A stretch of DNA of 16,144 bases from an uncultured Spirochaetia bacterium (GTDB lineage: Bacteria; Spirochaetota; UBA4802; JAGODF01): assembly GCA_937967705.1 (NCBI GenBank), contig CALCJG010000248.1, positions 1-16,144 of the forward strand, written 5' to 3'. A model generated the notes under the pieces. It saw nothing but the letters and a program-made list of their open reading frames with translations. It was not told the origin of the DNA and ran no database searches. Position numbers and translations under genes: made by a program. Each line of letters starts with the position of its first letter. Positions within the stretch are counted from its first letter, which is position 1. This document shows positions 341 to 15,990 of this stretch, piece by piece.

Positions 341-1312
341 TCAGAGGCTGGGTACGTTACCCGGTCTCTTCTCTTCTTCTTTCTTTTTAGCCTTTTCCAG
401 TCTTTCCTTTTCCTTCTTTATCCGCTCAGCTTCTTCCCTGGCCAGCCTTTCCTTTTCCTCTTTATCCCTGCGTTCCTTCTCGAGCCGTTCTTTTTCGGTA
501 CGCTCCTTTTCCGCCTTTTTCTTCAGGGCCAGCTCTCGCTGTTTTGCCTCCTTTTCCTTCGAATCATCCTTCTGCTCGACGGCTGACTGATTGGTTTCCA
601 GCACATCGTTGCGCAGTTCCGACTTGGATTCCTCATTTAGCTTCTCTATAATTTCAGGCTTGATGTCCTTGATTTCTTCCTTTATGGCTTTGATCTCTTC
701 CGCCTTCAGAACCGCCACCACGATGGGGGTCTTTTTCTCGGCGGCCTTCTCGGCGGTCTTCGTGTCCAGAACGACGTACTGGTTCATGGAAACCTTCTGC
801 TCGATCTCCTCCACCGCTATGCCTCCCTTGACTGGATTGACGGCTACGGTACCTTTTAAAACATCCAGCCGGGCATAATTCTTCGATGCGGTAACCCGGA
901 AGGTGGTTCCCCTCACGGCGATCACCTGAGTAGGGGTCTTTATCTGAAATTTCCGCGCCTTGAGGATGCGGGACAGGGTGACGAAGATCTTTCCCTGATC
1001 CATGTTGATCCTCGTGTCCCCCGATTCCTCCTTCATGAGGGATTCCAGGGAAAGCCGGGAATCGGCGTAAACCCGGATGATCCCGTAATTGCCGTAGAGC
1101 ATATCCAACACCGAGGCCTTTCCCGTGACGATGACATCCTTGAGCCTGATGACATCTCCCAGGGACGGGATTTTCTCCCTGCCGTCTGTTATGATCTTTA
1201 CATCCCCTGTCAGGAACTGGACTTTGATATCAAGGTTGACCGGCGCCTCTTTCTTGCAGCTCAGCATGAGGAGGGGGATGAGAAGGAAAGGGACTAGTTT
1301 AGAGAGTTTCAT
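341..1312 (-). CDS. FecR-domain lipoprotein with charged coiled-coil tail
   Basis: A predicted lipoprotein of 323 residues. I chose the ATG at 1312 rather than the longer reading from 1396: it has a GGAGG ribosome site 5 bases upstream and yields a classic signal peptide with lipobox LMLSC (lipid-bearing Cys19). Residues about 30-190 resemble the FecR domain, including the characteristic TPTQVIAVRGTTFRV near the middle. FecR domains occur in anti-sigma regulators of iron uptake but also, as here, in envelope lipoproteins without a sigma-factor neighbour, where the role is unknown. From about residue 205 the chain is dominated by Lys, Glu and Arg, with KERLEKER-type heptads to the end, so it should form a long coiled coil or charged rod. 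No sigma factor or TonB receptor lies beside it, so a regulatory role in iron uptake is not supported. Converges with the phosphate transporter. Confidence 0.82.
   Translation of the reverse strand: MKLSKLVPFLLIPLLMLSCKKEAPVNLDIKVQFLTGDVKIITDGREKIPSLGDVIRLKDVIVTGKASVLDMLYGNYGIIRVYADSRLSLESLMKEESGDTRINMDQGKIFVTLSRILKARKFQIKTPTQVIAVRGTTFRVTASKNYARLDVLKGTVAVNPVKGGIAVEEIEQKVSMNQYVVLDTKTAEKAAEKKTPIVVAVLKAEEIKAIKEEIKDIKPEIIEKLNEESKSELRNDVLETNQSAVEQKDDSKEKEAKQRELALKKKAEKERTEKERLEKERRDKEEKERLAREEAERIKKEKERLEKAKKKEEEKRPGNVPSL
348..388 (+). terminator. Possible terminator of the phosphate transporter gene, lying inside the FecR gene end
   Basis: Arms CTGGGTA and TACCCGG (one G-T pair) enclose a 3-base loop, 14 bases after the transporter stop. 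A pyrimidine-rich run ending in five Ts follows. The T run is interrupted by Cs, so it may be a weak terminator. On the other strand the same bases encode the last residues of the FecR-domain lipoprotein. Confidence 0.35.
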
Positions 1313-1420
1313 GGGAACCTCCGATTTAATGATCTTACAGCTTCTTTCAACAGGCATGGAGAAACCCTGTACTTGCCACGAAAAAGGACCATTCATGTAA
1401 AATTGATTGTAATAATGCCC

Positions 1421-1450
1421 TTGTCAGGGTTTATTTGATTTTACTATGTA
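1421..1450 (+). promoter_or_regulatory. Possible promoter for recD
   Basis: TTGTCA at 1421-1426 and TATGTA at 1445-1450 are separated by 18 bases, giving a passable sigma-70-like promoter 155 bases ahead of the chosen recD start. It sits in the divergent gap between the FecR-domain lipoprotein and recD. The -10 match is only partial. Confidence 0.3.
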
Positions 1451-1529
1451 AAACAATACAGAAGGCTGATCTTAGGTGCTGCATGATGAAACCCGCGGAA
1501 CGGGAGAAGCAGTATTTAAATCAGCAGGA

Positions 1530-1582
1530 CAATAATAGAGGATCGATGAGGTTCCCGTCAACCTATTATTGCCGGTTTTTTT
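1530..1582 (+). promoter_or_regulatory. Inverted repeat followed by T run in the recD leader
   Basis: Nine-base arms CAATAATAG (1530-1538) and CTATTATTG (1563-1571) are perfect complements around 24 bases. A smaller inner stem AGGTT/AACCT (1549-1553 and 1560-1564) competes with the second arm. After GCCGG comes a run of seven Ts (1576-1582), which ends 22 bases before the recD start. This could be a weak attenuator or a fold in the leader. The outer stem is A/T-rich, so its stability is doubtful. Confidence 0.35.
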
Positions 1583-1604
1583 CTGCTTCGCGGGGAGGAG
1601 TGCC

Positions 1605-3755
1605 TTGCCGGAATTGTTGACCTTGCAGGCTCTGGAACGTTCAGGGGTGATTCCGTCTGACGGAATTATCCGGTCTCTCTATGAAAATATATGGGAGAGC
1701 CTCGATATAACGCTTCTGGATTGCCTGACCATCAGGGATCTGGTCCAGATTTCCGGATGCGGCCGGATTTCTGAAGAAGACCTCGGTCTTCTTCACCTGC
1801 TGCTGATAGGCATCACCTCGTCGCTTAAGGAGGGGAGCCTCTGCATGAACTGCTCGTTACCGGCGATGGTGCACAGGATGGAACAGTACAATCTGCCAAA
1901 TGCTTCGGAAACTGCGGTCCGTATCAGGGATAAATTGCATGAGCGTCACTTCTCCCCCCTGATAGCGGATGACCCAGAAGCCTTTCTGCCGCTGATCTAT
2001 GTGCGGGATAAGAACGGTGAACGACTCTATTTCCAACTCTATTACCGTCATGAGGCTCTCCTGCGGGAGGATTTGAACAGGCTGTTGAACAAGCCGAGGA
2101 GAAGGACGCAGCTTTCACCTGAGGACGCCGGGAAACTGCTGGGGGATGTGCTGGAAAAGAATCCCCTCAGGGATCCCGCCGGATCTCCCCTTCTGCCCGA
2201 TGATCATCAGAAAATGGCCCTGCTGCTGGGGCTTACATCGGATTTTTGCATCATATCAGGGGGGCCGGGTACCGGAAAAACTTCCCTGGTGGTCAATCTG
2301 CTCCGCTGCATCGCCCGGAGAGAGGGGACGGTAGCCCTGGAGGGGATTCGCCTAGCAGCCCCGACCGGACGCGCGGCACGGCGCCTTGTGGAATCGGTGC
2401 TTGCCGGCCTCAGATCTCTTGAAAGGCGCGATACGATTGACCAAACCCTTCTGGCGATGCTCGATGAGACGGAGGTGCCCGGTGCGACACTGCACAGGCT
2501 CTTGGGCTACAGCCCCGGGAGAAACAGCTTCCTGTACGGTCCCCTCAATCCGCTGCCAGCCGGGGTTCTCATTATCGATGAGGTATCTATGGTGGATGTG
2601 ATCATGATGTCGCGCCTCCTGAGTGCGGTGGGGCCGAACTCCCGGGTCATACTTCTGGGAGACAGGAATCAGCTGCCCTCTGTCGAGGCGGGAGCCGTTC
2701 TGGCGGACATGATGCCCCGGGATGACAGGCCCCTCTACAGCCCATCCCTCATAAAACTCGCCGGGGCGGTCATACCCAGGCTTGAACTGGAGGAGGGTGA
2801 TCCTGCGTACCCCTTTACTGACCGAGTCGTGCTGCTGGCCAGGAGTTACCGCTCCACGGTGCAGATACTGGAAACCGCCGATTCCATCAACGCCTTAAGG
2901 AACATACCGGAAGACCGTCTCGATACGTCCGTCACTCAGATCATCCAAAAACTCACTCCTCTGGATTTAAAAGAGTTTTCCGTGTCCGTGGGAGACGGAA
3001 CCCGAAGGATCGGATGCTTTTTTGCCGAAATGTATCCTGAGGAAGGGAAGGAGTACAGGGATGGGGTACGCCGGTTTCTGGATGTTTGGGCAGAGGAAAT
3101 GATGAATGTTCATCCCACTGAGGGAAAAGGGGGAAGAAGCTATTGGGAGCTTGTCCGGGAGGTCCGTTCAAGGTCTTTTTCCGCGGATCAGGAGGGGGGA
3201 TGGAACGATCTATTGAAGGATATCTTCCTCTATCTTCAGAACAGCCGTATTCTCACGGTGCTCAAGCGAGGTGCGGGAGGAGCCGAGGGAGTCAATGCTT
3301 ACCTTGCTGAACGTATCAGGATGAGGGATGCAATGTTCCGCGAGGATTCGGACCTGTTTCCGGGGGAGCCAGTCATGATCACCCGAAACGATTACCGGAA
3401 CAATCTCTTCAACGGCGATCTGGGGGTCATTCTGAAGGATGATTCCAGTACTTACCGGGCTTTTTTCCCCTCCGGTGAGGGATATGCCGGCTTTGCCGTC
3501 GATCGGTTGCCCCGTTACGAAAGGGCCTTTGCCATGACGGTACACAAAAGCCAGGGGTCGGAGTACGGGCATGTCTTGATTCTTCTCCCCGCAGAGGAAC
3601 AGCATCCCCTTATGAAGCGCGAATTGCTCTACACGGCCCTCACCAGGGCCAGGAAGCAGGCGGTGATATGCGGCAGAAGGGGAACGCTGTTTCAAGGCCT
3701 GATGAACCGCACGGAGCGGGAATCGGGTCTGGGATGGTTTCAAGGAATCAGCTGA
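1605..3755 (+). CDS. recD: Exodeoxyribonuclease V alpha subunit (RecD helicase)
   Basis: RecD is the 5'-3' helicase motor of RecBCD, which processes double-strand DNA ends for recombination and degrades foreign linear DNA. The helicase motifs are complete: Walker A GGPGTGKT at residues 219-226, a PTGRAARR segment, Walker B IIDEVS (Asp325, Glu326), motif III GDRNQLPSVEAG, a UvrD-type VHKSQGSEY motif near residue 647 and YTALTRARKQ near 676. The N-terminal 200 residues fit the RecC-binding region of RecD1, including the LYFQLYYRHE segment, and argue against the RecD2 type. I chose TTG at 1605 because GGGGAGGAG lies just upstream with a 6-base gap; the upstream TTG at 1569 has no ribosome site. 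The protein is 716 residues, about 100 longer than E. coli RecD. Neither recB nor recC is adjacent on either side. The end overlaps thpR by 8 bases. Confidence 0.93.
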   Translation: MPELLTLQALERSGVIPSDGIIRSLYENIWESLDITLLDCLTIRDLVQISGCGRISEEDLGLLHLLLIGITSSLKEGSLCMNCSLPAMVHRMEQYNLPNASETAVRIRDKLHERHFSPLIADDPEAFLPLIYVRDKNGERLYFQLYYRHEALLREDLNRLLNKPRRRTQLSPEDAGKLLGDVLEKNPLRDPAGSPLLPDDHQKMALLLGLTSDFCIISGGPGTGKTSLVVNLLRCIARREGTVALEGIRLAAPTGRAARRLVESVLAGLRSLERRDTIDQTLLAMLDETEVPGATLHRLLGYSPGRNSFLYGPLNPLPAGVLIIDEVSMVDVIMMSRLLSAVGPNSRVILLGDRNQLPSVEAGAVLADMMPRDDRPLYSPSLIKLAGAVIPRLELEEGDPAYPFTDRVVLLARSYRSTVQILETADSINALRNIPEDRLDTSVTQIIQKLTPLDLKEFSVSVGDGTRRIGCFFAEMYPEEGKEYRDGVRRFLDVWAEEMMNVHPTEGKGGRSYWELVREVRSRSFSADQEGGWNDLLKDIFLYLQNSRILTVLKRGAGGAEGVNAYLAERIRMRDAMFREDSDLFPGEPVMITRNDYRNNLFNGDLGVILKDDSSTYRAFFPSGEGYAGFAVDRLPRYERAFAMTVHKSQGSEYGHVLILLPAEEQHPLMKRELLYTALTRARKQAVICGRRGTLFQGLMNRTERESGLGWFQGIS

Positions 3756-5478: not shown

Positions 5479-5599
<121 letters not shown>

Positions 5600-5719: not shown

Positions 5720-6166
5720 CTATTTGGTTGCTCCGCCCTCTACGCTGGACTTGAGACCCTTTCTTTCAATCTGGTATACGATTTCACAGTTGTCGTCTTT
5801 ATCGTATATGGATCTTACAATGGTTCCGCCTTTAACAGTTCCGCCGAATTCCTTCGCAACGGCAACGCCGGTGGAAGCATAATCAGCAGCACCAGCAGCG
5901 CCCTCAAGTCTGGCACCAACAAATTTCTCGATGATTCTCTTCTGGGCCATGATAAGAGCGGCTTCTTTAGCAGTTCCCCTTCTCTGGACTTTATTGGTTA
6001 AGCCGGGTTTCGGAACGCCAGTTGCAGTTACACGGAAAATATCAGGACTTACCCAACCTTCAGTAACAAAAGCGTCTCCTTTGATTTCTCCACCCATGCT
6101 TTTCACGCAGGCAGTGAAAGAAACGGCAACCATCAGCACCAGAATTAAAGAGAAAATTTTCTTCAT
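5720..6166 (-). CDS. LPP20-like lipoprotein
   Basis: A 148-residue lipoprotein with signal peptide ending in lipobox FTAC (lipid-bearing Cys20). The ATG has the strong ribosome site CAGGAGGA six bases upstream. The mature part contains a DIFRVTATGVPKPG strand, then a helical segment with RGTAKEAALIMAQKRIIEKFVG and a closing IVYQIERKGLKSS strand. This arrangement, residues that recall the pattern of repeatedly seen 'A..A...A...LLE.' helices, fits the LPP20/LPP20-like lipoprotein family, which includes envelope proteins of Helicobacter and spirochaetes of unclear function. It is monocistronic, with its own terminator and a long structured leader, which suggests well-expressed and regulated mRNA. 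The family call is by eye; function is unknown. Confidence 0.8.
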   Translation of the reverse strand: MKKIFSLILVLMVAVSFTACVKSMGGEIKGDAFVTEGWVSPDIFRVTATGVPKPGLTNKVQRRGTAKEAALIMAQKRIIEKFVGARLEGAAGAADYASTGVAVAKEFGGTVKGGTIVRSIYDKDDNCEIVYQIERKGLKSSVEGGATK

Positions 6167-6205
6167 ACAAAATCCTCCTGTTTAAATGTAAAAACTATAA
6201 ATCTA

Positions 6206-6237
6206 ATTAAAAGGGCTTTTTTTAAAGCCCTTTTAAT
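6206..6237 (-). promoter_or_regulatory. Perfect 14-base inverted repeat in the leader of the LPP20-like gene
   Basis: ATTAAAAGGGCTTT (6206-6219) and AAAGCCCTTTTAAT (6224-6237) are exact complements around TTTT. The 3' arm on either strand ends in TTTTAAT, like an intrinsic terminator. It sits 40 bases upstream of the lipoprotein ATG and downstream of its likely promoter, so it would be part of the mRNA leader. It may be an attenuator, a stabilising 5' hairpin, or a terminator for the upstream membrane protein gene. Confidence 0.6.
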
Positions 6238-6427
6238 ATGTATTACTTAATAATCTAAGTAACTGAAATATATTAATAATTAACAAAGCCAAAGTCAACC
6301 GAAAATTTTAATTTTTTGGTCGAAAGATAGGAGTTATTTTAATACAATAAAGCCTTATAGTGACTATATTTAATAGAATGAACTCTAAAAATATTCTATT
6401 TTTAGTGATTATTCCGGCTCTGTGAAG
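6238..6427. other. AT-rich intergenic stretch with palindromes
   Basis: No gene is visible between the membrane protein stop and the leader of the LPP20-like gene. The sequence is very A/T-rich. CTAAAAATA and TATTTTTAG (6385-6405) form a perfect 9-base stem with a TTC loop, 22 bases past the membrane protein stop, and AATAGAAT/ATTCTATT (6372-6379 and 6393-6400) overlaps it. The stems are almost pure A/T and no T run follows on the minus strand, so terminator function is weak at best. Confidence 0.5.
6270..6298 (-). promoter_or_regulatory. Likely promoter of the LPP20-like gene
   Basis: Reading the minus strand, TTGACT (6298-6293) and TAATAT (6275-6270) are 17 bases apart. Transcription would start near 6263, giving a leader of roughly 97 bases that contains the perfect hairpin at 6206-6237. 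Confidence 0.5.
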
Positions 6428-6964
6428 CTATTCTTTGATAATCTTCTGAATGGTGTACTCCAGAAGAAAGGTAAAGGCTATCAGGTTGAGCATGAACCAC
6501 ATAAAAGACAGTTCGCGATCGGTTACCCAGACGAACATAAAGGAACTGGCATATCCCAGGCCGAAACCGAGGATGATGATCTCACTAACACCGGTGAATA
6601 CATTGATGAAACTGTCGGATATCCTGTCGGAGGAGGTGACTTTCTGGTTCTCAAAATAACTTTTAACTATGGGAAGAAAGAAAAGGATTATGCCGAAGAG
6701 TATGGCGGATTGTATAAACCAGTGGCTTCCGACGAAAGGGATAAGTCCCGCTATAAATGATGATAGGATGAAGGCAAGAAGGACCTGGGGAAGTGCATGC
6801 TTCGAGTTGATCTTTTCCATCAGAATGGAAAAATAGGGTAAAATATTTTTCAATTCCTCCTTGGTGTACTCCTCTTTTTCGGAAAACAGGTTGATGTAGT
6901 AATTGACACCCAGCAGAACAATCAAATAGACAACAAAGACGATGATAATATAGATAAAATCCAT
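6428..6964 (-). CDS. Membrane protein of unknown function, five predicted helices
   Basis: I do not recognise this 178-residue protein. Five hydrophobic segments are visible, at about residues 3-25, 58-79, 84-101, 124-146 and 152-172, so it should be an integral inner-membrane protein. Between helices 1 and 2 is a charged stretch with SEKEEYTKEELKN, and between helices 3 and 4 a polar loop (ENQKVTSSDRISDS). The ATG at 6964 has GGAGG seven bases upstream, supporting the start. It is preceded by a 122-base gap after purN and followed by an AT-rich gap, so it is probably transcribed alone. Base composition of the gene is more A/T-rich than the purN-ubiB operon beside it. No catalytic or transporter signature was found by eye. 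Confidence 0.75.
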   Translation of the reverse strand: MDFIYIIIVFVVYLIVLLGVNYYINLFSEKEEYTKEELKNILPYFSILMEKINSKHALPQVLLAFILSSFIAGLIPFVGSHWFIQSAILFGIILFFLPIVKSYFENQKVTSSDRISDSFINVFTGVSEIIILGFGLGYASSFMFVWVTDRELSFMWFMLNLIAFTFLLEYTIQKIIKE

Positions 6965-7016
6965 TCCTTCCCCTCCAGCAATAAAGGATCATCGCATTTA
7001 TGATGATTCTGTGTGG

Positions 7017-7045
7017 TGATTATTTAATGATCAGTAAAAAATCAA
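7017..7045 (-). promoter_or_regulatory. Possible promoter of the five-helix membrane protein gene
   Basis: On the minus strand TTGATT (7045-7040) and TAATCA (7022-7017) are 17 bases apart, about 53 bases ahead of the ATG. Both hexamers deviate from consensus in two or three positions. Confidence 0.3.
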
Positions 7046-7086
7046 GCACTATTTGGTTTTTTTCCTGGAAAGACCCCGGATAAGGC

Positions 7087-7704
7087 CTATTTCTTGATTA
7101 AAACCTTCCTTCCCTGGACTTTTAACCGGTCGCTGCAGAAGAGACGCACGGATTCCGGGAGTATCAGATGTTCTTCTCTGAGAATTCGGGCAGCCAGGGT
7201 ATCCTCCGTGTCCTCCGGCAGGACCGGAACAGCGGCCTGGAGTATGATGGGACCGGTATCCGTACCCTCGTCGATGAAATGGGAGGTGCAGCCGGCTATC
7301 TTGACTCCGTAATCGAAGGCCTGTTTCTGGGCATGCACGCCGGGAAAGGACGGCAGGAGGGCGGGGTGGATGTTGATGATCCGATGCCGGTACTCCCGGA
7401 CAAAAAGAGGTGTAAGGACCCTCATATATCCTGCTGCGACGATAAGGTCGGTCTTGGCCTTTTTCAGCAGGCGTATCATCTCCCGCTCATGTTCCTCCCG
7501 GCTGCCGTGGCTCTTTGGATCTACATGGTGGGCGGTAATGCCGTAGTCCCGGGCTATATCGAAAGCCCCCACACCGGCCTTGTCGGATATGAGAATCCCG
7601 AACCGGGCGTTGAGGGAGCCCTTTTTGATCTCTTCGGCTACGGCCTTGAAGTTTGAGCCCCTTCCCGAGACGAGAAAGGACACCACCCTTTTTCCCATGA
7701 TCAC
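7087..7704 (-). CDS. purN: Phosphoribosylglycinamide formyltransferase
   Basis: PurN transfers the formyl group of 10-formyltetrahydrofolate to GAR in step three of purine synthesis; it is cytoplasmic. The 205-residue protein carries the phosphate-binding SGRGSNF near the N-terminus (residues 13-19), the folate-site AGYMRVL (91-97), the NIHPALLPSFPG signature with catalytic Asn111 and His113, and GTDTGPII with Asp149. These equal the E. coli Asn106, His108 and Asp144. The GTG at 7704 is preferred over the ATG two codons later because AGGAGG sits 5 bases upstream of it; it overlaps the ubiB stop by four bases (GTGA), so translation is probably coupled. It is last in an operon with a phasin-like gene and ubiB; no other purine gene is near. 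Confidence 0.96.
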   Translation of the reverse strand: MIMGKRVVSFLVSGRGSNFKAVAEEIKKGSLNARFGILISDKAGVGAFDIARDYGITAHHVDPKSHGSREEHEREMIRLLKKAKTDLIVAAGYMRVLTPLFVREYRHRIINIHPALLPSFPGVHAQKQAFDYGVKIAGCTSHFIDEGTDTGPIILQAAVPVLPEDTEDTLAARILREEHLILPESVRLFCSDRLKVQGRKVLIKK

Positions 7705-9389
7705 AGTTTCCTCCTAGTAATGATATAGATGAGAAGTCCGAACCCTAAAAGCCCCGCGCTGATGAAGCCTCCAATCCCGATAACCGGTACCCCCTGCCAT
7801 TTGGGGGGTATCCCGGAGAGGACGATCAGCGAGGATCCGATGATGAGCGCGGCCAGAACGATGGCGAAGACCAGCCGATTGCTGATGATGTCATGCCGTT
7901 GTATCATCGTCTCTAGTCCCTTGTGTTCAAAGATGATCTTTATCCTGCCCTTCTTTATCTGGTCAAGGATTTCTCGCAGATCTCCGGGGAATTCTTTGAT
8001 CAACGCCCCGGCATCGGCAGCCGAAAGGAAAAGGTCCTTGAGGGTGCGGAGGGGATTGAGCTGTTCCCTTATAAGGGAGCGGGCAAAAGGCTCCATGTAC
8101 TCCACCATGTTGAAATCCGGGTCCAGTTTTCGGGCGGTCCCCTCCATGGTGATCAGGGCTTTGAGAAGCAGGAAAAAAGCCGGGGATATGCGGAGCCGGA
8201 AGGTGATGACCGTGCCGATGAGATCGGAGAGCATCCCGGTCATGTCGAGTTTCTTAAGAGGCAGGTAACTGTAGCGGTCCAGGAGCTCCGAGACCTGTAC
8301 CTCCAACTGTTCGGAATTTTCAATTCGGCCTCCTTCGGTCAGGACCTGCAGGCCCCGCACTATGCGCCGGGGGTCTCTTTCCACGGTGCCGATAATCATG
8401 GAGGAGAGGGTTTCCCGGTAGCGTGAGGGCAGGGTTCCCATCATGCCGAAATCGAGGAAACAGATGACGTTTTCCTCCAGGATCAGGATGTTGCCCGGAT
8501 GAGGGTCGGCATGGAAGAAACCGTGTTCGAAAACCTGTTTCAACACCATCTCCGAACCCCTGCGTGCTATGAGACGTGTATCCCATTCCCCGGGGCCCTC
8601 TCTGATGATCCCGGAAAGCTTGGTCCCCTCCACATATTCCATGGTGAGCACCCTTCTGGCGGAGAGTTCCCGGTAGACCTGGGGAACGTAGACCGTGGAG
8701 TCCCGGAGGAAGTTTTCCCGGAAACGCTGTATATGTACGGCCTCCAGGTTGAAGTCGATCTCCTTTCGGATAGTGCGGTCAAACTCCTGGACGATGCCCA
8801 CGGGATTGAGTATGTTCATCCCTTCGATGTACTTTTCCGCGAGGAGGGCCAGATTGAGCATGATTTCAAGGTCGATCTCGATGAGGCGCCCGATGCCCGG
8901 GCGTTGGACCTTGACGGCCACGATGTCCCCTTCCGCAAGCACGGCACGGTGTACCTGGGCAATGGAGGCCGTCGCCAGGGGCGTCTCGTCGAATCCGGTA
9001 AAGATTTCTGCAACCGGTTCTCCCAGTTCTTCCCTGATCAGCTGACGCGCCTCGGCGGCGGAAAAGGGGGGCACGGAGTCCTGAAGCTTTTCCAATTCAG
9101 TGATGAGCTCTGCGGGAAGGAGATCGGGCCGGTTGCTCATAATCTGCCCGAATTTGATGAAGGCGGGTCCCAGCTCTTCCAGAACGCAGCGCATTCTTTC
9201 CCAGCGCGTGAGGGTGGCCCTCTCTCCCTCATGGCGGTCGAGGATTTTACGTCCTATATCCAGGTATTTATCCAAGCGACCGGCGACTACCATATCCCCG
9301 AAGCCATGTTTTACCAGGACGGTGAGTATCTCCCGGTAACGGTTGATATGCCGGTAACCCCGCCCGATACTGCCGATCCCCCGGATCAA
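7701..9389 (-). CDS. ubiB: UbiB/ABC1/ADCK-family atypical kinase
   Basis: A 562-residue member of the UbiB (AarF/ABC1) protein-kinase-like family, linked to ubiquinone biosynthesis or isoprenoid lipid handling. The diagnostic KFGQ (79-82) of the KxGQ motif, PLATASIAQVH in the Ala-rich loop (137-147), VAVKVQRP with the nucleotide-site Lys160, KEIDF (209-213), HADPHPGN (293-300) and DFG (313-315) are all present. The C-terminal end has two hydrophobic helices (about 505-525 and 535-558) separated by a short loop, the usual membrane anchor. The only start giving the full N-terminus is TTG at 9389, four bases past the phasin-like stop, with a weak ribosome site; the next Met would cut into the conserved RYREIL region. 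Overlaps purN. No ubiE or other ubi gene is seen, so the symbol marks family rather than proven pathway. Confidence 0.92.
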   Translation of the reverse strand: MIRGIGSIGRGYRHINRYREILTVLVKHGFGDMVVAGRLDKYLDIGRKILDRHEGERATLTRWERMRCVLEELGPAFIKFGQIMSNRPDLLPAELITELEKLQDSVPPFSAAEARQLIREELGEPVAEIFTGFDETPLATASIAQVHRAVLAEGDIVAVKVQRPGIGRLIEIDLEIMLNLALLAEKYIEGMNILNPVGIVQEFDRTIRKEIDFNLEAVHIQRFRENFLRDSTVYVPQVYRELSARRVLTMEYVEGTKLSGIIREGPGEWDTRLIARRGSEMVLKQVFEHGFFHADPHPGNILILEENVICFLDFGMMGTLPSRYRETLSSMIIGTVERDPRRIVRGLQVLTEGGRIENSEQLEVQVSELLDRYSYLPLKKLDMTGMLSDLIGTVITFRLRISPAFFLLLKALITMEGTARKLDPDFNMVEYMEPFARSLIREQLNPLRTLKDLFLSAADAGALIKEFPGDLREILDQIKKGRIKIIFEHKGLETMIQRHDIISNRLVFAIVLAALIIGSSLIVLSGIPPKWQGVPVIGIGGFISAGLLGFGLLIYIITRRKL

Positions 9390-9393
9390 GGAA

Positions 9394-9699
9394 TCAGCCC
9401 TGCCGGTTCCTCAGCTGCTCCTCCAGTTCGGCGATCTTTTTCTTGAGGTCCTCCACTTCCGTCTTGCTGGGAATTTCCAGCTTGCCCAGGGCCTTCTGCA
9501 CCAGCCCGGAGACCTGCTCCTCCAGTTTGACCTTGGTCTCCTCGGACTGCTTCACGAAATCCTGAACGAACTTCTTCCCTTCCTCCTCGGCCAGTTTGGC
9601 CTCCTCCGCGAACTTCTTGGCCCATTCCTCGATCTTATCCTTGCTCATGGCCGCAATACCCACACCGGTAAGCATGGCCTTTTTCAGAGATTCTATCAT
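9394..9699 (-). CDS. Phasin-family-like coiled-coil protein
   Basis: A 101-residue protein that is predicted almost wholly helical. It starts with a short hydrophobic stretch, MIESLKKAMLTGVGIAAMSK, then a Lys/Glu-rich amphipathic helix and a C-terminal leucine-heptad segment DLKKKIAELEEQL. This pattern matches small proteins annotated as phasin-like or polyhydroxyalkanoate granule-associated, which are often found beside ubiB in diderm bacteria. No PHA synthase is in the window, so granule binding is not shown. ATG at 9699 has AGGAGG eight bases upstream. It is first in the operon with ubiB and purN, with only four bases to the ubiB start. Confidence 0.8.
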   Translation of the reverse strand: MIESLKKAMLTGVGIAAMSKDKIEEWAKKFAEEAKLAEEEGKKFVQDFVKQSEETKVKLEEQVSGLVQKALGKLEIPSKTEVEDLKKKIAELEEQLRNRQG

Positions 9700-9812: not shown

Positions 9813-9826
9813 TCAAGTTTACTTGA
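9813..9826. promoter_or_regulatory. Palindrome overlapping the -35 box, possible operator
   Basis: TCAAGT and ACTTGA are exact complements around TT. The right half contains the first four bases of the TTGACA -35 box of the WD40-caspase operon, so a dimeric regulator bound here would block the promoter. The site lies in the divergent region shared with the phasin-like/ubiB/purN operon. Confidence 0.35.
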
Positions 9827-9851
9827 CATAATGCATAAAATGCCAATGATA
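9823..9851 (+). promoter_or_regulatory. Promoter of the WD40-caspase lipoprotein operon
   Basis: A perfect TTGACA (9823-9828) and AATGAT (9846-9851, 4 of 6 match) are 17 bases apart. Transcription would start near 9858, giving a leader of about 28 bases that carries the ribosome site GGAAGGA before the ATG at 9886. Confidence 0.5.
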
Positions 9852-9885
9852 GTTCGAAACTTTTTTTATTGTTGCGGAAGGAAAT

Positions 9886-12800
9886 ATGAAATCTACGGAT
9901 ATCCCACAATGCTTTTTGATCGTATTATGCCTCCTGGGGGCCTGTAAATCAGCTCAGACAACGGGCTTTGATATGGGTATACAGAAGGGACACACCGCCC
10001 GTATCGACAAACTGGTTCTCAGTCCCGACGGTTCCCTCATCGCTACCGGATCAACCGCCGACAGTATCGTGAAGATCTGGACGGGGGACTGCCGCCTTAT
10101 CCGGACGGTCAAGGTTGATGCGCGGCTGAAACATATCACCTTCAGCCCCAACGGGGAGAAATTTGTCTGCGTATCCGCGGGATATACCCACTTTACGGTC
10201 TCCGCCTGGAATCTTCGGGGGGAGCTTCTGGGAACCATACGAGAAGAGGTGGACCGCACATTCGAACTGAGCGGCGAGGTGGCCTTCGGTGCGGGAGACC
10301 GTATTGCCGTAGCCACGGAGAGGGAGATTAAGATTTTCTCCCTTCAGGGGAAACTGCTGAAAACGGTCCATTACGGGAAAATGAACTTCGTACGCGTCTA
10401 TGCCCTGGAGGGGGGGACAGTCCTGGCCGGCGAACTCTATACCTCCGATCTGGCCGCCACCGCCTTCTGGAACTTCGAAGGAAAATTTCTGAGAAAACTG
10501 GTCACCCGCAATCCCCTGATTCCCTTCGGGAAACATCTGGCCGCCTATATCATACCGGCCAGGCCCTGTTATGTCTGTGACAAGAAGGGGAGGAAAAAAA
10601 GCCTGCCTCCACAAATCCCCTATATAGAGGTGTATGACCCGATTACCGGCGCTCGGATCAACCGGATAAAGCTACCGGCGGAAATAGCCGGCATAGATCT
10701 GCCTCAAAGGGCGTGCTTCAGCCCGGACGGCAGGTTCTTCGCCGTGCGGATACCCTCGGGAACGATTGCTCTCTATGGCTATGACGGCCATGGACTGGGA
10801 TTGATAAAATCCCTGGAAGCTCGGGGTTCCGTATCCGATCTGTCTTTCAGTGCCCACAGCGGATTCCTGGCCCTTGTCATTCACGAGGGGGGGATATCCC
10901 GCCTGGAGACCCGGGACATTCAGAGCGGCGGTGTCATCAGCTATTCCCCTCCACCCTTCGGCAACAGGCCGCGCTGCCTTTCCCTGAGCGGTAACGGGCG
11001 GGTCATAGCCCAGGTCGGGCAGAGGGACTTGGATATCTGGAGCCTCAGCAGGGGGAAACATCTCTTTGCTGTTCCCCTGGAGGATTCCGACGGTTACGAC
11101 AGAACGGCGTTGAATACGGAAGGGAGCATCCTGGCCTGCACCTCCCGGAAGGGGATCAGGCTCTACAACGCTCGGGGTGAACCTGTGAAAATTCTGACCT
11201 ATCCCCCTCTCTGGAAAAAGGGCTTCTATCCCTCCGGGGGTCTTTTCTTCAGCGCTGACGGCAAGGGGCTTATCCTTCACGGGTCCGGGCGCAGGGGGGA
11301 TTTGCTGGTTTTCTGGGATCTCGCAGGAAAGAGCCGTCATCTCCTTCTGGAAGGGAGGGTTTACCTGAACGCCGGGGGGAATCGGATCACGGTAGTCCGG
11401 GGGGATGAGGTCAGCGTGGCGGACATCTCCGGCAGGGTCGTCAAAAAGTTTCGCATAACGGGTGATCGCAAGGCCCTCGCCGTCAGCGGCGATGGCAGGA
11501 GAATAGCTACCGCTTCCGCTGATCCGGTGGTGCGGGTATGGGATGATACGGGGAGGCTTCTCCATACCATTGAGGGGCCGCGTTATGAGGGTGCCAAACG
11601 CATGAGGGTGCGAGACCTCGTTTTCAGCCCCAACGGGAAGTTTATCACCCTGCGACTCACCCTGTACCGAAATGACGGGGGCGTTTTAGCCTACAAGTCG
11701 ACCCTCTGGGATGCGGAGGAGGGGGTCTTCATCCGGAAACTGGAGCATCTTGAAAATATCTTCAGTCCTGATTCGGGCTCCATCGTCTCCTATAACGGCA
11801 GGAACCTGCATTACCTGACCTCCTACGGGAGGCCTGTGGGGGCTCCCAGAATCCTGGATGCCCTTCTGGAGAAGGTCTCCTTCACTCCCGACGGGAAGTA
11901 TCTGGCCGCCCTCTGTGACGACATGACCCTGAGAGTCATCAACGTGTCTACGGGAAAAACCCTGGCCTTTCTCTCCGACGGGAGGGAATGGATCATGTAT
12001 ACCCCCAGCGGCTATTTTGACGGTTCCCGGTACGGGGGTTCGCTCCTGGCCATGACAGAGTCGAAAAACGCCGTGGGAGTGGATCAGTTTGCCCTGAGGA
12101 ACAATCGCCCCGATCTGATCCTTCGGGAATTGTCCGTGGACGCCCCGGAGGAGATAGACCGGCTGTATCATCAGCATCTCCGTAGGCTGAAGAAATGGGG
12201 TCTTTCGGAGGAATCGGCGGTCAGGACCGTACGGGCTCCCCTGGTGAGGATTATGGAGATGAAGCAAGACTTTCGGGACAGGGGGGGGAAGTTTGTCGAT
12301 CTCCGCCTGTCTCTCAGGGCGAGAGGCGGCTCTCTCAGATCCTACAACATCTACGTGAACGATGTGGCCCTCTTCGGTTCCGGCGGCCGGAAAATTTCAG
12401 GGAAGGAGATGGATATCCCCGGGCAGAGGGTTGAGCTGACAGCCGGAAGGAACAAGATCGAGGTCACCTGCGTCAGCGACCGTGGCGTGGAATCCCTTCG
12501 GGCATTGACTTATGCCTATTATAAGAAGGAAGCGAAGGGAAATCTCTATTTCCTGGGCTTTGGCGTGTCGCGTTACCGGGACAGCGCCCTGAACCTCAAA
12601 TACGCCGGGAAGGATGTCATGGATATGGCGGAGCTGTTCAGCCGCATGGAAGAACGCTACAACCGGATTATCGTAAAAACCTATGTGGACAGCGAGGTGA
12701 CCCGGGAGAAGATACGCAAAGCCAAAAGCCTTTTCGACGGAGCGGGGGTCGACGACACGGTGGTCCTCTTCATCGCGGGGCACGGCCTGCACGACAACGA

Positions 12801-13380
12801 CAGCGCGCGAACCTATTACTACCTGACCAGCGATGCGGATATCAAGAGGCTTTCGGCAACAGCCGCGGACTTCGACATGATCGAGGATCTGCTGCAGGGC
12901 ATCAGGCCCCGGAAAAAACTCTTCCTCATGGATACCTGCGAGTCCGGCGAGGTGGAGGATGAAAAAAGCGGGATCATCGCTTCGGCAGAGGGCCTGCGGG
13001 GAGTAAGACCCCGGACCAGCCGTGCCCTGAGCATAAAAGTACGGGAGATGCGCGGGGTGCGTATGAGGGCGGTAACCGAGGACCGGGACCGGTTCATCTA
13101 CAACGATCTTCAACGGCGCTCCGGGGCGGTGGTCCTCTCCTCTTCCCGGGGAGGCGAGTTCTCCTACGAGAGCGACAGTTACGCGAACGGCCTTTTTACG
13201 GAGGAGATCATCAACGCCCTGAAAGGTCGGGCGGACAGGAGCCGGGACCGGTTCGTCTCACTCCGGGAGCTGAAGGAATACGTCATCAAGACCGTCCCGA
13301 AGATCAGCGGCAACCGGCAGCATCCCACGGTGGACCGGGACAATCTCTCCGCCGATTGGAAATTCCCGGTTGTGAAATAG
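9886..13380 (+). CDS. WD40-repeat lipoprotein with C-terminal caspase-like peptidase domain
   Basis: A 1164-residue predicted lipoprotein: signal peptide with lipobox LLGAC (lipid-bearing Cys20), then about fourteen WD40-like blades (residues 35 to about 725; e.g. FSPNGEKF, LSPDGSLIATGS, WDDTGRLL), enough for two propellers. The propeller ends with the WIMYTPSGYFDGS segment typical of these proteins. Residues about 750-880 look like a beta-sandwich (YNIYVNDVALFG). From 886 on lies a caspase-like (peptidase C14, COG4249-type) domain: LYFLGFGVSRY, catalytic His966 in FIAGHGLHD, catalytic Cys1018 in LFLMDTCESGE, and the VVLSSSRGGEFSYES and GLFTEEIINAL segments of the small-subunit part. A 50-residue Arg-rich stretch follows the Cys. 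The ATG has GGAAGGA upstream. It heads an operon with a second lipoprotein. Peptidase activity and envelope location are inferred from domains and lipobox; substrate is unknown. Confidence 0.93.
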   Translation: MKSTDIPQCFLIVLCLLGACKSAQTTGFDMGIQKGHTARIDKLVLSPDGSLIATGSTADSIVKIWTGDCRLIRTVKVDARLKHITFSPNGEKFVCVSAGYTHFTVSAWNLRGELLGTIREEVDRTFELSGEVAFGAGDRIAVATEREIKIFSLQGKLLKTVHYGKMNFVRVYALEGGTVLAGELYTSDLAATAFWNFEGKFLRKLVTRNPLIPFGKHLAAYIIPARPCYVCDKKGRKKSLPPQIPYIEVYDPITGARINRIKLPAEIAGIDLPQRACFSPDGRFFAVRIPSGTIALYGYDGHGLGLIKSLEARGSVSDLSFSAHSGFLALVIHEGGISRLETRDIQSGGVISYSPPPFGNRPRCLSLSGNGRVIAQVGQRDLDIWSLSRGKHLFAVPLEDSDGYDRTALNTEGSILACTSRKGIRLYNARGEPVKILTYPPLWKKGFYPSGGLFFSADGKGLILHGSGRRGDLLVFWDLAGKSRHLLLEGRVYLNAGGNRITVVRGDEVSVADISGRVVKKFRITGDRKALAVSGDGRRIATASADPVVRVWDDTGRLLHTIEGPRYEGAKRMRVRDLVFSPNGKFITLRLTLYRNDGGVLAYKSTLWDAEEGVFIRKLEHLENIFSPDSGSIVSYNGRNLHYLTSYGRPVGAPRILDALLEKVSFTPDGKYLAALCDDMTLRVINVSTGKTLAFLSDGREWIMYTPSGYFDGSRYGGSLLAMTESKNAVGVDQFALRNNRPDLILRELSVDAPEEIDRLYHQHLRRLKKWGLSEESAVRTVRAPLVRIMEMKQDFRDRGGKFVDLRLSLRARGGSLRSYNIYVNDVALFGSGGRKISGKEMDIPGQRVELTAGRNKIEVTCVSDRGVESLRALTYAYYKKEAKGNLYFLGFGVSRYRDSALNLKYAGKDVMDMAELFSRMEERYNRIIVKTYVDSEVTREKIRKAKSLFDGAGVDDTVVLFIAGHGLHDNDSARTYYYLTSDADIKRLSATAADFDMIEDLLQGIRPRKKLFLMDTCESGEVEDEKSGIIASAEGLRGVRPRTSRALSIKVREMRGVRMRAVTEDRDRFIYNDLQRRSGAVVLSSSRGGEFSYESDSYANGLFTEEIINALKGRADRSRDRFVSLRELKEYVIKTVPKISGNRQHPTVDRDNLSADWKFPVVK

Positions 13381-13408
13381 AGATAAAAAATTGTCATTGG
13401 AGATATTC

Positions 13409-14509
13409 ATGAAACTGTTTAAACAATTGAGCGTTGTGATACTCTGCCTTGCCGGGATTTTTTCCCTCTCCTGCAAGAGTTCCTTCATCGGGGGCGGTGC
13501 CGTCAGCGGCGCCTCCTGGAATCTCAAACGGGCCGAACCGGGTCAGGAGATCATCCTTTCAGTACGGGCCAAAAAATCGGTGCGCTACGTGACCTTCACC
13601 GTATGGGAGGTAGGGGTCGGAGGGCAGAAGGACCGGAAGGTGCTGACCCATAAGCGGATCAACGACGGTGGAAAGGCGGAGATGGAGTGGCGCTATTCCT
13701 GTCCGCGCAACCGTAACCTGTGCCCCAAAACAATTCCGCGGTACTATTTTACCGCCGCATCGGACAATCCCCCTTACACCACGAAAAGCGGGGAGATCAT
13801 CATCGCCGAGAAGATCAACATGAAGATGGTGAGCGGTTTCGGCGGGTTCGGGATCTCCGACGGCATCTATTTCGTCCTGGAGGCCAGGGACGGCAGCGGG
13901 CGTGTGATACACCGGCTCAAGGGGGTGACCAACGAGAAGGGAAAGATCCCGGACGTCAAGCTGATCCCCTGTGGGGACTACAGGGTTTTCCTGGTGATGA
14001 ACGAAAACGAGTACAAGGGCCGAGAACGGGAGTGGAAAAACTTTACCGAGGAGTGGGGGGACAACCTCGTGGAATGGCAGAAGCTGAGATGGGCGAATCT
14101 GCCGAAAGTAGAGAAAAAGGAGAGGGCTGCGTACAGCGGCAAGAGGGATGTGCGGTCGGGGAAGATCAAGGTTTACATGCTCAACCGGGGCGACACGGTA
14201 CGGATGAAACTGGAGACCAGCGGTATACTCAGGAAGGATTGGGACCGAGTCCAGGCCCGCAAGAAAAGGGAGGCTCTAAGGCGCTCCCGGAACAAGATCG
14301 ATCCGGAATGCGAGAAGCCGGAGGTGCAAAAAACGGTTCTGGAGGAGGTTACCTTCAAACTTCAGGTCAATCCGGACAGCTATTCCCATCTGCAGTCGAT
14401 GGGATGCAAGGAACTGGGGAAAAAATACATGAACCCTCCCTGCTACAACTGGCGCACCATCTTTGCCTACATTGACGGGCGCTGGGTGATGGTGGACACC
14501 TACAAATGA
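13409..14509 (+). CDS. Cysteine-containing lipoprotein of unknown function, partner gene of the WD40-caspase
   Basis: I do not recognise a family. The 366-residue product begins with a signal peptide and lipobox FSLSC (lipid-bearing Cys22). I chose ATG at 13409 (GGAG seven bases upstream) over an in-frame TTG at 13391. The mature protein starts with a likely Ig-like strand region (GQEIILSVRAKKSVRYVTFTVWEV), then a second beta-rich unit around IYFVLEARDGSGRVIHRLKGVTNE, a polar helix rich in Trp, Lys and Glu (EWKNFTEEW), and a basic segment before the closing YIDGRWVMVDTYK. Six further cysteines, including SC(6 residues)C at 98 and 105 and two near the C-terminus, suggest disulfides outside the cytoplasm. 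It starts 28 bases after the caspase gene stop, with no terminator between, so the two are probably co-transcribed. It overlaps the converging hydrolase gene by 10 bases. Confidence 0.85.
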   Translation: MKLFKQLSVVILCLAGIFSLSCKSSFIGGGAVSGASWNLKRAEPGQEIILSVRAKKSVRYVTFTVWEVGVGGQKDRKVLTHKRINDGGKAEMEWRYSCPRNRNLCPKTIPRYYFTAASDNPPYTTKSGEIIIAEKINMKMVSGFGGFGISDGIYFVLEARDGSGRVIHRLKGVTNEKGKIPDVKLIPCGDYRVFLVMNENEYKGREREWKNFTEEWGDNLVEWQKLRWANLPKVEKKERAAYSGKRDVRSGKIKVYMLNRGDTVRMKLETSGILRKDWDRVQARKKREALRRSRNKIDPECEKPEVQKTVLEEVTFKLQVNPDSYSHLQSMGCKELGKKYMNPPCYNWRTIFAYIDGRWVMVDTYK

Positions 14510-15183: not shown

Positions 15184-15990
15184 ATGATCCCTGTAAAAAA
15201 CCAGAAGAACGACCAGCGAAGTCTTCAGTATGATGTCCAGCGGGGGGATGCCTTTACCCTCATCCGGGAGATCCCGGACCATTCGGTGGACTGCATACTC
15301 ACGGACCCGCCCTATAATCTGAGCCCCTATTCCACGGGCAACATACAGATGAAATGGCGCCGGGACATCAACAACGACCTTGCGGGGTGGGACCGCGAGG
15401 TCTTTCAGCCCTCGGACTGGGTGGCTCAGTTCAAACGTGTGCTCCGTCCCACGGGCAACATCTTCGCCTTCACCAGCTACAATCTCCTGGGGAGGTGGCA
15501 TGATGCCTTCGACCCGGAGTTCGACACCTTCCAGTTCATGGTGTGGCACAAGACCAATCCGGTGCCCAAGATCTACAGGGCCGGGTTTCTCAACAGCTGC
15601 GAGCTGATCGTCTGCCTCTGGAACAAGGGGCATCGCTGGAATTTCATCTCCCAGCGGGAGATGCACAATTTCATCGAATCCCCCATTTGCATGGGGAGGG
15701 AGAGGCTCAAGAACCCGGCGCATCCCACCCAGAAGCCCGTGAAGATACTGAGGCATATCGTAGGCATCGCCACGGACCCGGGGGACCTGGTGCTCGATCC
15801 CTTCATGGGGGTGGGGTCCACCGGCGTGGCGGCCCTGGAACTTGGCAGGAGGTTTGCTGGTTTCGAGCTGGAGGAGAGTTACTATCTTGCCGCCCTCGAC
15901 CGCCTGCACGAGGCGGAGAGGACCTCCCTTTCTGCGGCGGCCCGCCCGGAAGGGGGCGGTGATGTCTCGAAGCGAAAGGTCTCCCTCTGA
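15184..15990 (+). CDS. Site-specific DNA methyltransferase, beta class (N6-adenine or N4-cytosine)
   Basis: A 268-residue S-adenosylmethionine-dependent DNA methyltransferase. The catalytic motif IV, DPPY, is at residues 41-44 near the N-terminus, and the SAM-binding motif I, DPFMGVGST, comes late (205-213), preceded by HPTQKP; this order defines the beta class. DPPY favours N6-adenine methylation, although N4-cytosine is not excluded. Between them lies the variable part that should read the target site (about 75-185). The frame is open far upstream, but ATG at 15184 is the first sensible start; its ribosome site is weak (AGGGAT). No restriction endonuclease or specificity gene is visible, so it may be an orphan regulatory or protective enzyme, or its partner lies beyond the right edge. 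Confidence 0.9.
   Translation: MIPVKNQKNDQRSLQYDVQRGDAFTLIREIPDHSVDCILTDPPYNLSPYSTGNIQMKWRRDINNDLAGWDREVFQPSDWVAQFKRVLRPTGNIFAFTSYNLLGRWHDAFDPEFDTFQFMVWHKTNPVPKIYRAGFLNSCELIVCLWNKGHRWNFISQREMHNFIESPICMGRERLKNPAHPTQKPVKILRHIVGIATDPGDLVLDPFMGVGSTGVAALELGRRFAGFELEESYYLAALDRLHEAERTSLSAAARPEGGGDVSKRKVSL

Follow-up and report, generated by a model that had tools for sequence, protein, structure and literature searches.

In the window analysed here, a 16,144 nucleotide stretch of contig CALCJG010000248.1 from an uncultured Spirochaetia bacterium, the open reading frame (ORF) at 9886–13380 on the forward strand encodes a 1164-residue predicted lipoprotein that joins WD40 repeats to a caspase-like Peptidase_C14 domain. 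This appears to be an exported, probably lipid-anchored protease that would act in proteolysis at the envelope, a reading to which, taken as a whole, we give a probability of about 0.55. The gene belongs to a known, widespread, little-studied kind, and what is surprising is the family-wide export together with a calcium-like loop, rather than the pair that it forms with the lipoprotein gene immediately downstream, here called the companion.

The protein is matched by the Pfam WD40 and Peptidase_C14 (PF00656) profiles, the latter at residues 892–1155 with 55.1 bits against a cut-off of 21.4 and over profile positions 7–229 of 233; the NCBIfam profile caspase_w_EACC1 (NF047832) scores 63.9 bits, under its 140-bit cut-off. 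In the AlphaFold2 model (predicted local distance difference test, pLDDT, 77.4; predicted template modelling score, pTM, 0.69) there are strands at residues 29–714, helices at 717–779, strands at about 786–879 that would be compatible with a beta-sandwich, judged from the strand pattern alone, and the caspase part at 887–1161. The initial annotation, made from the sequence alone, had described a protein of this length with a lipobox at its start, WD40 blades, a beta-sandwich, and a caspase-like domain with His966 and Cys1018; the ORF, Pfam, and the model agree with this layout, and the sequence has the two residues at these positions. Its "roughly fourteen blades" would be in line with the two propellers delimited with VIA-align 2. 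A single caspase domain found nothing among PDB sequences at E ≤ 1, and the structure-search listings for the whole protein were filled by WD40 chains.

The family was followed in two sets, the best 120 of 657 protein matches, which include the window's own protein (P0002), and genome loci from the best 79 of 110 confirmed relatives, with 3935 ORFs. Full-length identity is 31–38% across 24 aligned relatives, and that of the caspase part 44–58% across 16. WD40 relatives labelled "caspase family protein" are found in Spirochaetales, Bacteroidales, Chitinispirillaceae, and others, and Peptidase_C14 occurs in 94 of 198 sampled genomes of one spirochaete phylum and in none of the 14 control genomes. 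Of the 79 loci, eight (L009, L011, L014, L016, L024, L025, L045, L061) come from one metagenome-assembled genome (MAG), Zod_Metabat.749, so the WD40-caspase family expands within genomes, with strong expansion of paralogues.

That the catalytic dyad is intact, as had been supposed, is clear from the alignment of the best 120 matches, in which His966 and Cys1018 are kept in every protein, as are Asp910, Asp957, and Asp1016, and from the dyad pattern in 79 of the 80 intact C14 ORFs of at least 700 residues from the 79 loci. Asp910 and Asp1016 are the two acidic pocket residues expected of an orthocaspase or metacaspase specific for Arg or Lys. By our own reading of the alignment they would be equivalent to Asp95 and Asp211 of TbMC2, which accommodate basic residues according to an excerpt of PMC6426788. 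In the linker between p20 and p10 (residues 1020–1077, where model confidence is mostly low) Arg1043 is present in 119 of the 120, and no earlier description of a near-invariant Arg in this linker was met in the open-licence literature searched. Self-cleavage of MaOC1 at Arg219 is reported in an excerpt of PMC7475262.

Export is predicted for this protein and for most of its family. The lipobox LLGAC would make residue 20 the lipid cysteine, and the lipoprotein pattern PS51257 fits both this protein and the companion. It also occurs in 236 out of 10000 N-termini after shuffling and in 38 out of 1229 ORFs from the 79 loci. A simple rule assigned 86 of the best 120 matches to signal peptides, 12 to lipoproteins, and 22 to neither, which is a signal segment in 98 of 120 (97 of 119 without the window's protein); on background sequence it picked out 19 internal segments from 480 and 245 N-termini from 1200 after shuffling. 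Inspection by eye suggests that many of the 22 begin within the propellers, and the rule overlooked a hydrophobic start in P0067 and P0107 at least. Among the 86 C14 ORFs in the 79 loci there are 61 signal peptides, 7 lipoproteins, 12 with neither, 4 cut, and 2 short, with a signal segment in 68 of the 80 that are intact and reach 700 residues. These predicted signals make it likely that the protein lies outside the cytoplasm, in the envelope, as had been proposed for propeller and protease together, but most of the homologues have signal peptides in place of a lipobox, and the lipid-anchored form of that proposal does not extend to them.

The second unexpected feature is in the p10 half, where residues 1117–1128 (DRSRDRFVSLRE) match a loose EF-hand pattern. 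The loop sits between model helices at 1103–1115 and 1126–1140. It is present in 105 of the best 120 matches (71 strict, 34 loose, 15 with neither), against 7 of 1200 shuffles for the loose pattern, and upstream of the caspase domain the pattern is seen in only 1 of the 120. A profile of 17 caspase domains matched EF-hand proteins in the PDB weakly at the loop (E 0.06) and plant metacaspase-4 weakly over the dyad (E 0.054). No earlier description of this loop in the exported WD40-caspase family was met in the open-licence literature searched; EF-hand motifs have been seen in 7 archaeal orthocaspases (excerpt of PMC6426788). The loop would bind calcium, an ion at higher levels outside the cytoplasm than within it.

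From these features we infer a mechanism of calcium control, cutting at Arg or Lys, and self-activation. The protein would be placed outside the cytoplasm, probably held by its lipid, the propellers would bind a protein partner or substrate, and the acidic pocket would select Arg or Lys. Calcium bound by the EF-hand-like loop would control the protease, which a cut in the flexible linker, perhaps at Arg1043, would activate. The role would be regulated proteolysis of envelope or surface proteins, more likely than cytoplasmic cell death. There is no known substrate, and over half the length of the protein in the model is propeller, which would suit a surface scaffold or adhesin in which the propellers are the working part and the caspase domain trims only its own protein. 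This is unlikely, in that the strict conservation of dyad and pocket fits activity, yet conservation does not separate self-trimming from the cutting of other proteins.

Several observations count against an anchored, calcium-controlled envelope protease. The n-region of the signal, MKSTDIPQ, is nearly uncharged, which is atypical, and together with the 22 of the best 120 matches in which the rule detects no signal segment this might indicate a misread start and a cytoplasmic protein. Such a misreading is highly improbable in view of the good ribosome site at the ATG, the model helix at residues 5–20, and the signal segments of most of the other best matches. In a tree of the 120 caspase domains, in which 50 of 117 inner branches are weakly supported, the 12 lipoprotein tips require at least 8 changes between lipoprotein and signal peptide, a count that leaves out 22 unclassified rows. 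Because the signal segment is common and the anchor has changed this often, export is, as far as predicted signals go, a trait of the family, and the lipid anchor, which is scattered and comes and goes, is not a defining one. The loop of the window's protein is itself a loose match only, without the usual glycine at position 6, and both the EF-hand and the metacaspase-4 matches in the PDB are outranked by a designed protein that is unrelated (E 0.027). Metacaspases are described as calcium-dependent, but MaOC1 is calcium-independent (both from excerpts of PMC7475262).

Nor is a link between loop and export significant among spirochaete C14 ORFs, where the loop occurs in 40 of 60 exported and 2 of 7 not exported ORFs, with 3 cut (Fisher p = 0.09 over 70 ORFs, which is suggestive). 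These 70 ORFs (L127–L196), from 54 genomes, comprise 30 returned loci and 40 hand-picked among higher-scoring matches, and the rows are related. Sixty of them are exported by a lax rule that allows any start up to the domain, and 44 have the EF-hand-like loop, against 14 of 1400 shuffles. A crude dyad pattern is failed by 26 of the 70, and in an earlier pass over the first 30 loci there was no dyad ORF in 11.

Work on bacterial caspases, in the excerpts of PMC3501461, PMC6426788, PMC8283722, and PMC7475262, is framed mostly around cell death and around cytoplasmic or membrane-bound enzymes. For the window's protein a role as a cell-death or anti-phage effector of the cytoplasmic type is quite improbable, given the export signal in most relatives among the best matches. 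The protein reaches 24.5 bits with one PADLOC model. Among the 10 other window ORFs PADLOC gives matches, all generic, to three (RecD, ABC1-kinase, DNA-methylase), with no clear partner, and a defence island is not supported by PADLOC for these ORFs and the main protein. The likeness of the propellers to Apaf-1 is unspecific, with unrelated WD40 chains within 1 Z of it in the VIA-align 2 comparison. A large conserved family that is apparently extracytoplasmic, in which the catalytic residues are intact and a calcium loop is likely, suggests another use, in regulated cell-surface proteolysis.

The initial annotation had called an envelope-located caspase module not well described. This is fair for experiments, no experimental study of an exported WD40-caspase having been found in the open-licence literature, a scope outside which most subscription journals lie. 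It is less so for the idea, however, as excerpts of PMC3501461 from 2012 already give WD40 as the domain that most often accompanies the bacterial metacaspase domain (73 of 671), take N-terminal helices as likely signal peptides, and raise possible extracellular roles. Besides the repeats, WD40-containing bacterial metacaspases and orthocaspases share with the window's protein the C14 domain (PF00656) and the His/Cys dyad. WD40 is also present in cyanobacterial orthocaspases (excerpts of PMC8283722 and PMC7475262). Their accessory domains come mostly after the caspase (excerpt of PMC8283722), whereas here twin propellers precede it, behind a signal segment and lipobox. For six of them an outside WD40 and an inside protease have been proposed (excerpt of PMC7475262), whereas the predicted layout here has both outside.

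The exported "caspase family protein" relatives have the same full-length architecture as the window's protein, but most have a signal peptide without a lipobox, and the companion is absent from all 79 loci. Over the dyad and acidic pocket the window's protein can be aligned with plant metacaspase-4 and trypanosome MC2, which are not known to have propellers or a lipoprotein signal and whose calcium sites differ from this loop.

The companion starts at the ATG at 13409, with its own ribosome site, and as had been noted is a second predicted lipoprotein 28 bases downstream with six further cysteines. Of its cysteines (13, 22, 98, 105, 188, 301, 333, 345), six lie beyond the signal segment and lipid cysteine, and its lipobox, FSLSC with Cys22, is weaker than that of the main protein and atypical. 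Pfam gave no match at E ≤ 10, including none to PAAR, VgrG, hub, or SpaA domains, and the database search returned one match, 99% identical. A four-row profile found 19 matches including this one, 7 of them with PAAR (PF05488), 4 of these also with PF04717, and 2 with a peptidoglycan-binding domain; 3 of the 19 are labelled Spirochaetes or Leptospirales. That profile itself held PAAR-type sequences, and the companion was then tested alone, when 16 of 18 matches scored 13–39 bits against 11.5 bits for the best of 360 shuffles. The model of the companion is confident for residues 31–130 only, and the structure search gave generic immunoglobulin (Ig) folds with a best E of 4.4e-5 and low template modelling (TM) scores. 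Judged by these matches, residues 32–182 are an Ig-like module of a kind known from the spikes of contractile injection systems, probably followed within this span by a SpaA/CnaB-like module. The companion thus resembles PAAR/VgrG spike and baseplate-hub proteins in this module, but is unlike them in having no PAAR or hub domain and in being a predicted lipoprotein. The last 165 or so residues, from about 200, have no relatives in the database and profile searches, and the model is not confident there. In an excerpt of PMC3482391 the proteases that carry out processing in injected toxin systems include caspase-like peptidases; nothing in this analysis links the main gene to such a system.

The suggestion that the companion is a dedicated partner, kept adjacent across genomes, was not supported. 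No homologue was found among the 3935 ORFs of the 79 loci at E ≤ 10 (phmmer), 72 of these loci holding at least 1.2 kb past the match and 7, counted by hand, being able to hide a companion. A profile of the companion module found one clear ORF there, six others at E 4.9–9.2 being noise. This ORF, a baseplate-hub gene at 5724–7397 (reverse strand) of L029, lies roughly 1 kb beyond the WD40-caspase of that locus in the opposite orientation and has an Ig-like and SpaA tail, with Phage_GPD just under the Pfam cut-off and SpaA above it. As a counterpart of the companion it is taken as chance, because the companion alone scores 0.0 bits with the hub tail and pieces of the hub and PAAR proteins found no second case in the 79 loci.

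The closest relative of the main gene found is in G002, a sludge spirochaete MAG that is also the closest by the window's ABC1/UbiB-family protein (62% identity; 13 and 46 genomes searched). Its caspase gene, 53% identical over the last 500 residues and with its start lost at a contig edge, is followed by a convergent gene, by our reading dioxygenase-like and unrelated, and not by a companion. G002 has a second C14 gene (L099, 1–882, forward strand), followed closely by an exported protein (916–1701, forward strand) that we read as FecR-like. In another genome (G024; L122, 3314–5669; ABC1 protein 58% identical) the phasin-ABC1/UbiB pair that occupies 7701–9699 (reverse strand) of the window is kept with no caspase beside it. 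Because of this the caspase-companion pair looks like a lineage-specific presence next to the phasin-ABC1 genes. Among 46 genomes of the class of G002, 2 (G019 and G057) have companion-like matches at E ≤ 1e-5, and 8 have them at E ≤ 1. The relative in G019 (27% identity) lies by thioesterase-like and ammonium-transporter-like genes, and no caspase was seen on its 4986-base contig; the G057 matches resemble P0122 and are PAAR-like on that ground, and their neighbours look LysM-like by eye.

As a general claim the dedicated partner is thus rejected, with no homologue in the 79 loci or beside the G002 caspase, and the companion is a lineage-specific lipoprotein that is probably on the same transcript as the main gene. 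It may bind the protease or be cut by it. It is possible but doubtful that the companion arose, in this lineage alone, as a true functional partner, whether substrate, inhibitor, or anchor, and for such a partner absence elsewhere would say little. The shared strand, the short gap, and the companion's own ribosome site would fit it, as would the CKS with which both proteins begin at the lipid cysteine and the lack of acidic side chains over the following four residues. Set against these are the absences just given, the relative in G019 among other genes, and the fact that chance adjacency also yields one pair in one species. A bolder and distinctly unlikely proposition would be that diderm bacteria, spirochaetes above all, keep an extracytoplasmic class of caspase whose p10 half has an EF-hand-like calcium loop of its own. 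The window gene would then be a single-chain version, held by a lipid anchor and with twin propellers like those of Apaf-1, a ligand- and calcium-switched protease of the envelope surface that works on or with a spike-module lipoprotein in this lineage.

Table 1. Features of the WD40-caspase gene and its companion (window coordinates)
Feature	Position	Strand	Evidence
Sigma-70-like promoter match, TTGACA-16-AATGAT, 10/12	9823–9850	+	Consensus scan only
Probable ribosome binding site GGAAGGAAAT ahead of ATG	9876–9885	+	Sequence reading
WD40-caspase, predicted lipoprotein, 1164 residues	9886–13380	+	ORF, Pfam, protein search, model
Predicted signal segment and lipobox, residues 1–20, lipid Cys20	9886–9945	+	Sequence rule and pattern; model helix 5–20
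WD40 propeller 1, residues ~34–347	9985–10926	+	Pfam, AlphaFold2 model, VIA-align 2
WD40 propeller 2, residues ~358–689	10957–11952	+	Pfam, AlphaFold2 model, VIA-align 2
Helical linker, residues ~717–779	12034–12222	+	AlphaFold2 model
Possible beta-sandwich, residues ~786–880	12241–12525	+	Strand pattern of model only
Caspase-like Peptidase_C14 domain, residues ~887–1161; His966, Cys1018, pocket Asp910 and Asp1016	12544–13368	+	Pfam, alignments, model
Flexible p20/p10 linker, residues ~1020–1077; near-invariant Arg1043	12943–13116	+	Mostly low pLDDT; alignment
EF-hand-like loop DRSRDRFVSLRE, residues 1117–1128, flanked by two model helices	13234–13269	+	Pattern, profile search, model
Companion, predicted lipoprotein, 366 residues; ~32–182 Ig-like and probable SpaA/CnaB-like module	13409–14509	+	ORF, searches, model

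The consensus scan found 6 promoter-like sites in the region, against a shuffle mean of 2.4 (standard deviation 1.7). Elsewhere in the window, a DNA methylase at 15196–15990 (forward strand) matches N6_N4_Mtase with 117.8 bits, with no restriction enzyme among the window ORFs scanned. The window has the look of a spirochaete chromosome and shows leptospira-like traits. At 5481–5597 (forward strand) there is an isolated 5S rRNA gene, with no tRNA or other rRNA gene found in the window, as in genomes whose rRNA genes are scattered, a feature of Leptospira. Two predicted lipoproteins on the reverse strand, both below the NCBI cut-offs, are weakly similar to leptospiral ones, that at 341–1396 to LipL45/Lsa33 (FecR domain) and that at 5720–6166 to LipL21.

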